From Ignavibacteriales bacterium (GTDB lineage Bacteria; Bacteroidota; Ignavibacteria; UBA10030): DNA of 43,952 nt. A program made the translations under genes and the position numbers. Under the pieces are notes generated by a model that saw nothing but the letters and a program-made list of their open reading frames with translations, searched no databases and was not told the origin of the DNA. The first letter of the stretch is position 1, and each line of letters opens with the position of its first letter. Of this stretch, positions 15,055-33,600 are shown in pieces. The stretch lies in the NCBI GenBank assembly GCA_016194505.1, contig JACQBK010000048.1, forward strand, positions 1 to 43,952, read 5' to 3'.

Positions 15055-15072
15055 GGGGGAGGTAAAAAGGAG

Positions 15073-15145
15073 TGGACAGGGCCAGAATCGAACTGGCGAC
15101 ACACGGCTTTTCAGGCCGTTGCTCTACCGACTGAGCTACCTGTCC
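15073..15145 (-). tRNA. tRNA-Phe (GAA)
   Basis: A full cloverleaf reads on the minus strand: acceptor GGACAGG/CCTGTCC, D-arm TAGCTCAGTCGGTAGAGC, anticodon loop CTGAAAA with GAA at 15110-15112, T-loop GTTCGATTC, and discriminator A. The 3' CCA is not encoded. The first bases of the gene and its 5' flank occur again at 15230-15251. Confidence 0.95.
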
Positions 15146-15251
15146 AACAAAACTGTATTTGAAAACAATATGCTAAATAACACGCTGTGGTAGTTTCTTG
15201 ACAACTTGTCCCGCCGTTGTTGGGCGGGAAGCTACCTGTCCAACAAAACTG
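15134..15251. repeat. Direct repeat of tRNA-Phe 5' end flanking a palindrome
   Basis: A perfect 22-bp direct repeat occupies 15134-15155 and 15230-15251. The first copy contains the first 12 bases of tRNA-Phe plus 10 bp of its 5' flank; the second copy has no tRNA body attached. The palindrome tcccgcc / ggcggga (15209-15230) abuts the second copy. The spacing between copies is 96 bp. Confidence 0.85.
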
Positions 15252-30594: not shown

Positions 30595-30822
30595 TTATAA
30601 CTGTTTCAGAAATTCTTCTGGGTCCACTTTTGCTTGTTTAAGAATGCCTCGAAGAGTCCCAATTTTTAATTCATCGTGAAACGGAACCACACATCCGACG
30701 GCTCCTCCCTGCGTTTCTTTTTTCATAACGACATGACTGCCTCGCTGACGTACTCTTCGAAAACCCAGCCGCTCTAACGCTTTAATAGTCTCTTCAGCAG
30801 AAAGCGTCTTGAGATTAGGCAT
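30595..30822 (-). CDS. hicA: HicA-type mRNA interferase toxin
   Basis: The 75-residue product has the double-stranded-RNA-binding-like fold of HicA/YcfA: SAEETIKALERLGFRRVRQRGSH with the catalytic His30, then VVMKKE, VVPFHDELKIGTLRGILKQA. Such toxins cut mRNA and block growth. It overlaps the upstream hicB by 8 bp. The order antitoxin first, toxin second is one of the two known arrangements. Confidence 0.9.
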   Translation of the reverse strand: MPNLKTLSAEETIKALERLGFRRVRQRGSHVVMKKETQGGAVGCVVPFHDELKIGTLRGILKQAKVDPEEFLKQL

Positions 30823-31027
30823 TGACGGCGGCTTCGAATGTCGTCATCAAAGGCTTCTCTATGTGCGGCATCGGAAATTCTTCCAGGTATAGCTCCGTCG
30901 CCTCTTTTAAATTTGCCAACGCGTCATCAATCGTTTTACCCTGACTCACTGTTCCAACCTCAGGGCATTCTGCAACGTACATGTCATCTTCTCTATGCAA
31001 AACAGCAGTAAGGGTTTTAAGAGTCAT
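30815..31027 (-). CDS. hicB: HicB-type antitoxin (short form)
   Basis: The 70-residue product has the partial RNase-H-like fold of HicB: TAVLHREDDMYVAECPEVGTVSQGKTIDDALANLKEATELYLEE. It ends soon after, without the helix-turn-helix or ribbon-helix-helix domain of longer HicB proteins, so direct operator binding by this protein alone is doubtful. It should neutralise HicA by direct contact. Confidence 0.9.
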   Translation of the reverse strand: MTLKTLTAVLHREDDMYVAECPEVGTVSQGKTIDDALANLKEATELYLEEFPMPHIEKPLMTTFEAAVNA

Positions 31028-31104
31028 ATAGGAACCTTTATAGGCTAAGACAAAAAATCGGTAGGGGAATAAATTATATTTATTTTTCTTTACAAAGTGG
31101 GGTC

Positions 31105-31164
31105 TCCCGCATAGCGGGATCCGCCAATCTTACTCGTCCGCCATCTTTGTGGCGGAATGGCGGA
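31105..31164. repeat. Palindrome pair with a palindrome nested in the second loop
   Basis: tcccgcatagcggga (31105-31119) is followed directly by tccgcc (31120-31125) and ggcgga (31159-31164), and between the last two lies another tccgcc...ggcgga (31137-31156). Confidence 0.75.
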
Positions 31165-31235: not shown

Positions 31236-31240
31236 TAAAG

Positions 31241-31315
31241 TGGGCGCTGCTGGGGTCGAACCAGCGACCTTACGCGTGTGAGGCGTACGCTCTGAACCAA
31301 CTGAGCTAAGCGCCC
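31241..31315 (-). tRNA. tRNA-Val (CAC)
   Basis: A cloverleaf on the minus strand: acceptor GGGCGCT/AGCGCCC, D-arm TAGCTCAGTTGGTTCAGAGC, anticodon loop CTCACAC with CAC at 31278-31280, T-loop GTTCGACC, discriminator A, no encoded CCA. Part of its 5' end recurs at 31419-31437. Confidence 0.95.
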
Positions 31316-31437
31316 AGAAAAACAACTTTACAAAATAACAGTGAGCTTTGAACCAAGTGCCTGCCCGCCATGCGGTACCTTTTGGTGGGCCTGCCCGCCA
31401 TGCTTTACCATTAGGCGGGAGCTAAGCGCCCAGAAAA
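31303..31437. repeat. Direct repeat of tRNA-Val 5' end flanking palindromes
   Basis: A perfect 19-bp repeat, gagctaagcgcccagaaaa, at 31303-31321 and 31419-31437. The first holds the first 13 bases of the tRNA; the second has no tRNA attached. Two tandem GCCTGCCCGCC-started hairpins fill 31359-31419, the last ending in ggcggg right against copy two. Confidence 0.9.
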
Positions 31438-31478: not shown

Positions 31479-31611
31479 AATAGGACGCCGTAAAAGCAGA
31501 AAAAGCGTGCGCCAAAGGCGCATCCGCCTCTGGCGGAGAAAAAGCGCGGATAAAGATTTTAAATATTTAATCGGCTTTTATTAGCCTCATCGGTTTTTTC
31601 GGCGTCCTATT
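31479..31611. repeat. Inverted repeat overlapping the uvrC stop codon
   Basis: aataggacgccg (31479-31490) and cggcgtcctatt (31600-31611) are perfect 12-bp arms. The right arm contains the uvrC stop codon. The 30-bp double palindrome lies inside. Confidence 0.85.
31508..31537. repeat. 30-bp double palindrome, copy 3
   Basis: tgcgccaaaggcgca joined to tccgcctctggcgga, both perfect. Confidence 0.9.
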
Positions 31612-33490
31612 TAACACTCTCCTCCTCCCCAAAATACTCCTTAATCTTCGCTGAAACTTTCGCTCCGACAATCTCGGCAATTTGCTCTTCGGTTGCGAAC
31701 TTAACGCCCTGCACCGAGCCAAAGGACTCCAGCAGCTCCGTGGCGCGCTTCTTTCCAACTCCTTTGATAAGATCAAGCTCCGTCTGCAAAATGCGCTTGG
31801 AGCGAAGCGAGCGATGGAATGTGATCGCAAAGCGGTGCGCCTCGTTGCGGATTTGCTGTAACAGCTTTATGCCCGATGAAGTCCGCGGGATCATCAGCGC
31901 CTCGCTTTCTCCCGGCACGAATACTTCCTCCAGCCGCTTCGCAAGTCCGATGACGGGGATGGAGGAAAGCCCAAGTTTATTCAGTATCTCCACCGCGCTG
32001 GAAAGCTGTCCCTTGCCGCCATCAACCATGATGAGGTCGGGCAGAGAGCTTTCCTCTTCAAGCAAGCGCGAGAAGCGGCGCTTCACCACTTCCTGCATGC
32101 TGGCAAAATCATCGGGACCCGAAACGGTGCGGATTTTGAATTTCCTGTATTCGCTTTTCTTCGGCTTCGCATCCACAAACACCACCAGCGAAGCGACGGA
32201 ATCGCTTCCTTGCGTATTCGATATATCGAAACATTCTATGCGGCGCGGAGGAGCTTTGAGCCGTAAATCCCGCTCCAACGACTTAACGGAATTGGGGACG
32301 AAATCACCGCGCTTCATGCGCTGTAACTCCAACTCGCCAAGTAAAAACTCAGCGTTATTCCTCACCATCGCAACGAGCTTCGCTTTATCGCCAGCTTTCG
32401 GGACTTCCAGCGTTACGGATCCGCCAAGGCGTTCTTCAAGCCACGCGCGAATAATTTCTCCGGAAATGATCGGCGCGGAAAGGATAATTTCATTCGGTAT
32501 ATCTTCATTCTCCAAATAGTATCGCTCGATGAGGCTCTCCAGCGCCTCGCCTTCTTCCTTACTCTCAACGTTGCTCATATAATAGTGCCGGCTGCCGAGA
32601 ACCTTACCATCCCGCACCTTGAAAATCACTCCGCACGCATCATCGGCTTTCATCGCAACGGCGATAATGTCGCGGTCAACTTGCTTCGCATCCACCACCC
32701 GCTGTTTTTCGTTGTAAATTGAAAGCGCTTTCAGCTTGTCCCGTGTTTTTGCCGCTTCTTCAAACTTCAGTCCGCCGGATAAACGCTCCATTTCCTGCTG
32801 TAACGAATGAACTGCGCTTTCCGTTTTGCCTTTCAACACTTGAGCAACTTGCGCAATCATAGAGCTGTAATGCTCCTGCGAGACCAAAGCTTCGCAAGGT
32901 CCCTCACATTTCTTGATATGATAGTCCAGGCAAATCTTGAATTTGCCTTTGTTGATTGCTTCCGGCGTTAAATCGTAGTTACAGCTTCGGATCATAAAAA
33001 TATCGCGCACCGTCTTCAGCGCAAAGCGCATGGTGCGGACATCGGTGTAGGGTCCAAAATACCGCGAGCCGTCTTTGATGATTCTGCGGGTGACAAACAC
33101 GCGCGGGAACGGCTCGTTGGTAATAACGATGTACGGATAGCTCTTGTCGTCTTTCAAAACGACATTATAGCGCGGATTGAATTTTTTGATGAGATTGGCT
33201 TCGAGAATGAGAGCCTCGACCTCGGAGCCGGTTACGATAAGCTGAACATCGGAGATTTTGGAGACGAGCGCATCAAGCTTGGCATCGGATGCGCGGGATT
33301 GTTGTCCGCCAGAGGCGGATCTGCCTTTGGCAGAAAAGTACTGCCGAACGCGGGAGCGGAGGCTTTGCGCCTTGCCTACATAGATGACCTTCCCCTCGGA
33401 GTTTTTGAATTGATATACTCCGGGATCGGTGGGAAGAGAACTAAGCTTCTCTTCAAGGGAGAGATCGTTTGTTGTGATCTGAATATCCAT
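31607..33490 (-). CDS. uvrC: UvrABC nuclease subunit C
   Basis: I take the ATG at 33490 (MDIQITTNDLSLEEKL), giving 627 residues; an upstream ATG would read through a repeat hairpin. The GIY-YIG domain starts PGVYQFKNSEGKVIYVGKA. A UVR motif region (SGGLKFEEAAKTRDKLKAL), the RNase-H-like C nuclease domain (ECFDISNTQGSDSVASLVVF, IMVDGGKGQLSSA) and a helix-hairpin-helix end (DLIKGVGKKRATELLESFGSV) follow. It makes both incisions in nucleotide excision repair. Residues 53-62 (SAKGRSASGG) are encoded exactly by a 30-bp palindromic repeat and sit in the loop after the GIY-YIG helix. Confidence 0.95.
   Translation of the reverse strand: MDIQITTNDLSLEEKLSSLPTDPGVYQFKNSEGKVIYVGKAQSLRSRVRQYFSAKGRSASGGQQSRASDAKLDALVSKISDVQLIVTGSEVEALILEANLIKKFNPRYNVVLKDDKSYPYIVITNEPFPRVFVTRRIIKDGSRYFGPYTDVRTMRFALKTVRDIFMIRSCNYDLTPEAINKGKFKICLDYHIKKCEGPCEALVSQEHYSSMIAQVAQVLKGKTESAVHSLQQEMERLSGGLKFEEAAKTRDKLKALSIYNEKQRVVDAKQVDRDIIAVAMKADDACGVIFKVRDGKVLGSRHYYMSNVESKEEGEALESLIERYYLENEDIPNEIILSAPIISGEIIRAWLEERLGGSVTLEVPKAGDKAKLVAMVRNNAEFLLGELELQRMKRGDFVPNSVKSLERDLRLKAPPRRIECFDISNTQGSDSVASLVVFVDAKPKKSEYRKFKIRTVSGPDDFASMQEVVKRRFSRLLEEESSLPDLIMVDGGKGQLSSAVEILNKLGLSSIPVIGLAKRLEEVFVPGESEALMIPRTSSGIKLLQQIRNEAHRFAITFHRSLRSKRILQTELDLIKGVGKKRATELLESFGSVQGVKFATEEQIAEIVGAKVSAKIKEYFGEEESVK
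33305..33334. repeat. 30-bp double palindrome, copy 4, inside uvrC
   Basis: tccgccagaggcgga joined to tctgcctttggcaga. It replaces no codon boundary: on the minus strand it reads as ten whole codons in frame. Confidence 0.93.
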
Positions 33491-33510
33491 ACCGCCCGCA
33501 CTATAAAACG

Positions 33511-33600
33511 TCACCCCGAGCGGAGTCGAGGGGTGACAATCAGATGGGAACAAAATCGAGCCCGCCGTATGGTTCGACTCCGCTCACCATGACGGCGGGA
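33511..33600. repeat. Two hairpins between mce and uvrC
   Basis: gtcacccc/ggggtgac (33510-33537) with the loop gagcggagtcga, and cccgccgt/acggcggg (about 33561-33598) whose loop holds the complementary cgactccgctca. The loops could pair with each other. The uvrC leader must run through both. Confidence 0.75.

Follow-up and report, generated by a model that had tools for sequence, protein, structure and literature searches.

Several described systems share features with the locus reported here. In fungal mitochondria, mobile endonuclease ORFs replace the end of the gene they enter, as in atp6 of Allomyces and atp6, atp9, cox2 and nad3 of Glomus; the resulting hybrid is functional, and the native end, now displaced, lies on the far side of the endonuclease gene (PMC3630166). 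In T4-like phages, SegB is a free-standing GIY-YIG homing endonuclease that adjoins tRNA genes, and it is reported to cut inside them and to drive the tandem amplification of a tRNA-segB unit (PMC13096335). Elements that integrate at tRNA genes are usually marked by partial tRNA copies (PMC9897764). Here, we analyze a repeat at the tRNA-Val gene of an Ignavibacteria MAG, in a window of 43,952 nucleotides (the whole stretch of DNA under analysis, to which the positions refer), together with similar repeats in the rest of the host genome and in other Bacteroidota. The repeat probably derives from an older tRNA-Val, as its displaced 5' part, and small GIY-YIG elements of the homing type probably invade tRNA genes bringing a replacement part with them.

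Displaced tRNA parts in the window

Two tRNA loci of the window, tRNA-Phe and tRNA-Val, include the following features.

15072..15145, minus strand: intact tRNA-Phe, anticodon GAA (ARAGORN and Rfam RF00005)
15209..15229, no strand: hairpin TCCCGCCGTTGTTGGGCGGGA in the displaced tRNA-Phe part (from the sequence)
15230..15251, minus strand: displaced tRNA-Phe 5' part, 10 nt of leader plus positions 1-12 (exact 22-bp repeat)
31240..31315, minus strand: intact tRNA-Val, anticodon CAC (ARAGORN and Rfam RF00005)
31316..31340, minus strand: leader now in front of the intact tRNA-Val (from the sequence)
31341..31358, minus strand: continuation of the displaced tRNA-Val 5' part, positions 14 to ~27 followed by CTCAC, whose end falls on the anticodon; decayed (gap-tolerant alignment q13-27 and sequence)
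31359..31418, no strand: insertion of two imperfect 30-bp hairpin copies, at the D-loop position within the displaced tRNA-Val part (repeat family D1)
31419..31437, minus strand: displaced tRNA-Val 5' part, 6 nt of leader plus positions 1-13 (exact 19-bp repeat)
31607..33553, minus strand: uvrC, marker neighbour of the uvrC - tRNA-Val - pyrR locus conserved in relatives

The sequence GAGCTAAGCGCCCAGAAAA occurs at 31303-31321 and again at 31419-31437, with 19/19 bases identical and a spacing of 116, and it consists of the first 13 nt of tRNA-Val(CAC) plus 6 nt of its leader. The initial annotation had described a perfect 19-bp copy of the tRNA-Val 5' end 116 bp away and set directly against a palindrome, and on both points it was right: the identity is 100%, and the GC-rich hairpin region 31359-31418 abuts the distant copy at 31419-31437. 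What it missed is the renewed similarity to the tRNA on the far side of the hairpins, where 31358-31341 reads ACTTGGTTCAAAGCTCAC against AGTTGGTTCAGAGC... in tRNA-Val, and stops on the anticodon CAC. In a gap-tolerant alignment, the displaced tRNA-Val copy scores 35.8, while 20 shuffled versions of that flank reach 24.0 at most. A candidate 3' relic of the same gene at ~31098-31141 scores 23.6, which is within noise, and we do not claim it. At tRNA-Phe, 15134-15155 and 15230-15251 agree in 22/22 bases, with the hairpin at 15209-15229; the second part of this relic has a marginal score of 26.7. Two unrelated tRNA genes had been said to have one layout, and the tRNA-Phe arrangement is indeed real and matches that of tRNA-Val.

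Two other features were observed around tRNA-Val. At 31479-31611 there is a ~130-bp element with 22-nt terminal inverted repeats (AATAGGACGCCG...CGGCGTCCTATT). By eye, sequence resembling it is found near tRNA genes at L010, L012 and L022, so that it probably represents a separate repeat family. Downstream of tRNA-Val, positions 30601-31030 hold two adjoining short frames that look HicA/HicB toxin-antitoxin-like by eye.

Partial tRNA copies and small GIY-YIG genes

The host set consists of 23 ARAGORN-confirmed tRNA genes of the Ignavibacteria MAG, with flanks of 400-450 bp. A partial copy is called at a gap-tolerant alignment score of at least 36; the best shuffled flank of the host genome reaches 32.4. 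Partial copies are found beside 14/23 host tRNA genes, a count that does not include the window tRNA-Val, which falls narrowly below the cut-off. In five related nuclease-free genomes used as controls, the number is 1/56 tRNA genes (Fisher p 9e-9 for host versus controls). Upstream copies are tRNA 5' parts and downstream copies are tRNA 3' parts, with the division often near the anticodon. The layout is therefore not limited to two cases, which would have been a coincidence had it been absent from all other tRNA genes, as the initial annotation put it. Its idea of one mechanism acting on tRNA genes gains from the recurrence of the layout at these 14 host genes and phylum-wide, but its restriction of that mechanism to 5' ends has to be dropped, since 3' parts are copied too, on the downstream side. 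The sole control copy belongs to a tRNA-Thr and scores 62 (L309, control set G273/G201). Some 350-500 bp downstream of tRNA-Ala(CGC) in L018, the 3' end of an SRP RNA-like gene recurs downstream of that gene behind a hairpin, a case in which the process may reach past tRNA genes.

The recurrent partner of the partial tRNA copies is a GIY-YIG nuclease gene. In the flanks of the host tRNA-Asn, tRNA-Pro, tRNA-Leu and tRNA-Arg there are adjoining small GIY-YIG nuclease genes, and 4/5 of the small GIY-YIG genes in the host genome lie <300 bp from a tRNA. For the host and 40 relatives together, 51/99 small GIY-YIG genes are within 460 bp of a tRNA, always on the same strand (51/51); the other 48/99 have no tRNA in the inspected stretch of up to ~2.5 kb. 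Most tRNA-linked loci have a partial copy beyond the nuclease gene, with scores up to ~155 compared to a null maximum of 34.8. There are two mirror layouts: a 5' part followed by the gene and the intact tRNA, or the intact tRNA followed by the gene and a 3' part. Some of the nuclease reading frames extend into the tRNA, as in the case of ...RGVAQPG, which runs across the start of tRNA-Pro.

By their domain and by their conserved Tyr, Tyr, Arg, His and Glu, the tRNA-linked proteins are members of the GIY-YIG superfamily, with a predicted nuclease activity. PF01541 matches 36/36 family members, and the putative active-site residues Y5, Y16, R26, H30 and E62 are invariant in the family. An AlphaFold2 model (pLDDT 94.7) resembles the UPF0213, Slx1 and I-TevI domains. 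The nearest solved relatives by sequence, also among the best by fold, are the UPF0213/YhbQ-like single-domain GIY-YIG proteins (1YWL, 1ZG2). Unlike the tRNA-linked family, the UPF0213-like genes of this order form separate clades and do not adjoin tRNAs.

In a maximum-likelihood tree of the domain, sequences from six families of the order group by tRNA isotype, and the side on which the gene lies is largely irrelevant. The isotype label changes 33 times on the order tree and 29 times on the phylum-wide tree, compared to 50.6 and 83.7 after shuffling, on short alignments in which many forks are unresolved and near-copies aid the clustering. Some forks remaining unresolved, the trees suggest a fixed target with one site per lineage, as in a homing endonuclease element. 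The profile built from the 36 tRNA-linked proteins matches 187/297 Bacteroidota genomes, and most of the 49 phylum-wide loci that we read have a same-strand tRNA alongside. A search of phage proteins gave two weak matches only, to Staphylococcus phage. In a closed genome, tRNA-Asp is followed by five 315-bp units, each with a nuclease gene and a tRNA-Asp 3' part; finding tandem arrays in closed genomes makes assembly error an unlikely cause. The tandem arrays in L239-L242 and L251 comprise three to five nuclease units together with tRNA parts, and they recall the SegB-driven amplification of the tRNA-segB unit.

Origin of the displaced parts

For tRNA-Ser(GCT), we have one pair of congeners in which G039 is filled (L188) and G034 is empty on that side (L368), with matching flanks. 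In G039, the nuclease gene and then the displaced 3' part come before the flank that in G034 directly adjoins the intact tRNA-Ser. In this one pair, the nuclease gene is present in the filled allele and absent from the orthologous empty allele. Two other candidate pairs were rejected: L206 versus G024/G020, where the tRNA is missing or the contig ends, and L197 versus G021, which carries a group I intron.

The uvrC - tRNA-Val - pyrR order is conserved, with a bare tRNA-Val in several relatives and displaced parts in others. In L042, the displaced 5' part shares 90% identity with tRNA-Val from the relative L041, compared to 78% with the intact gene of L042 itself. All three of L042, L072 and L049 follow this pattern, with native-type halves around a different tRNA-Val, and L049 has three tRNA-Val versions nested. 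The nuclease ORF is absent from all three loci. The intact gene in L042, L072 and L049 is no local duplicate of the relic.

The mirror layouts, the same-strand genes, the isotype-sorted tree, the one filled/empty pair and the three tRNA-Val loci with native-type halves are the observed basis of the explanation that we propose, in which very small, single-domain GIY-YIG nucleases would invade tRNA genes as homing endonucleases do. The nuclease would cut the tRNA gene near the anticodon, and repair would copy the nuclease gene together with a tRNA part into the cut site. The inserted unit would bring a fresh tRNA 5' part when the nuclease gene lies upstream of the tRNA, and a fresh 3' part when it lies downstream. 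Insertion would thus restore an intact tRNA and strand the native part beyond the nuclease gene, which may be transcribed from the tRNA promoter. The window loci would be late-stage relics after loss of the nuclease gene; this reading draws an analogy to those host loci that still bear a nuclease gene, because none remains beside the window tRNA-Val or tRNA-Phe. Hairpins would then accumulate in the dead halves. Several points count against the homing model: the lack of a nuclease gene at both window loci, the frequent overlap of 5' and 3' parts, the multi-copy host relics that must stem from local duplication, the intact tRNA of a filled allele, which would somehow have to avoid cleavage by the nuclease beside it, and the one partial copy in a nuclease-free genome.

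A wider proposal, to which we give slightly less than an even chance, is that these minimal GIY-YIG elements act across the phylum as tRNA-gene replacement drives. They would be isotype-specialised and reside inside the tRNA transcription unit, and the stranded half and the working tRNA would serve them as homology arms for spreading. They would swap essential tRNA genes for foreign ones, repeatedly at single loci, as with the three nested tRNA-Val genes in L049.

The break points form a loose cluster around the anticodon arm. Relative to the first anticodon base, the median end of the 5' parts lies 6 nt to its 3' side, and the median start of the 3' parts lies 12 nt to its 5' side. The break falls in the anticodon loop for 16/38 of the 5' parts and 8/47 of the 3' parts, and the two parts often overlap, which goes against a clean division. 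Some of the loci, among them L241, L222, L239 and L049, do show a clean split; elsewhere, the overlap could result from staggered breaks, co-conversion or several events.

An ordinary partial tandem duplication would have slippage or unequal recombination copy a tRNA end, selection keep one of the two intact, hairpins enter the spare and nuclease genes merely settle nearby. Local duplication must have occurred in the host, where the tRNA-Met, tRNA-Arg and tRNA-Pro relics are clearly tandem, in multiple copies with shared inserts and leaders; both window loci are without a nuclease gene, and one case lies in a nuclease-free genome. As an account of the whole, duplication is nevertheless unlikely, given that nuclease-free genomes have just that one case in 56, that in either mirror layout the nuclease gene stands between the intact tRNA and the copy, that the relic was not copied from the intact gene in L042, L049 and L072, and that tRNA-Ser(GCT) has an empty/filled pair. 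The presence of at most small nuclease genes between the copies and the intact gene, where read, at distances of ~100-700 bp, also bears on a remnant attachment site of an integrase-driven island, for which partial tRNA copies are usual (PMC9897764); with copies on both sides of the tRNA, and in arrays, this origin is hardly credible.

Both repeats of the window have hairpins next to them, and the 43 insertions found in relics are hairpin-like (median folding z -2.5), as they would be if a mobile palindromic element entered at tRNA 5' ends and duplicated them on insertion. That reading is very improbable: 3' ends are copied as well, tRNA similarity resumes past the hairpin, the L042 relic has no hairpin, and GC-rich hairpins are also found away from tRNAs (22 in the window versus 3-6 in shuffles). 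The initial annotation had suggested a palindromic element using tRNA starts as entry sites, but a targeting role finds no support, as the hairpins lie inside the displaced copies and mostly at loops (15 in the D-loop, 8 in the T-loop, 6 in the anticodon loop, 1 in the variable loop and 13 in other positions, n=43). They look like secondary insertions in dead, unconstrained halves, and not like elements aimed at tRNA 5' ends. In the tRNA-Pro(GGG) relics of five genomes (L016, L131, L151, L186 and L198) there is a 22-bp double mini-hairpin at ~31/32 (41/42 in some). Changes in its first stem preserve pairing, so that some hairpins possibly have a function.

Relation to known systems

If true, homing-type invasion of tRNA genes would explain what a large class of small, uncharacterised GIY-YIG proteins does, account for puzzling tRNA fragments in Bacteroidota genomes and name a mechanism that replaces essential tRNA genes by foreign ones. 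Many natural pairs of a nuclease and its target, one for each tRNA isotype, would also become available for studying DNA reading by a single small domain. In the open-access papers searched, we found no report of bacterial chromosomal tRNA-linked GIY-YIG elements with displaced tRNA halves. The parts are known in kind, from the fungal ORFs that replace gene ends and from phage SegB, and a bacterial isotype-specific family with displaced halves is apparently undescribed in that literature.

Group I introns in tRNA anticodon loops have the same kind of target but are spliced out, whereas the GIY elements have no intron RNA and restore the tRNA by a replacement part. No group I intron RNA is present between the tRNA halves of the window, L188 and L197, where Rfam gives tRNAs only. 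The tRNA-Asn gene has a group I intron in its anticodon loop in G021 and a GIY element in the congener G009. The intron (L371 4609-4871, RF00028, 87 bits) has an apparent HNH endonuclease frame.

SegB shares with the family described here a GIY-YIG domain, a free-standing gene and a position adjoining tRNAs. It differs in being phage-borne, with no isotype preference reported and no displaced tRNA halves described, and we liken the two by features, not by kinship. In Allomyces-type ORFs, as here, an endonuclease gene brings with it a new end for the gene that it invades, and the native end is displaced beyond. By sequence, the displaced native end beyond the ORF and a working gene partly or wholly foreign both appear to be present in the tRNA-linked family, with the ORF itself lacking at the foreign-gene loci L042, L049 and L072. 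The Allomyces-type targets are mitochondrial protein genes, entered at their C-terminal end, and those described here are bacterial chromosomal tRNA genes, entered at either end by isotype-sorted lineages. Because of this difference in targets, we regard the tRNA-linked elements as similar in their working to the Allomyces-type ORFs but do not class them as members of that type.
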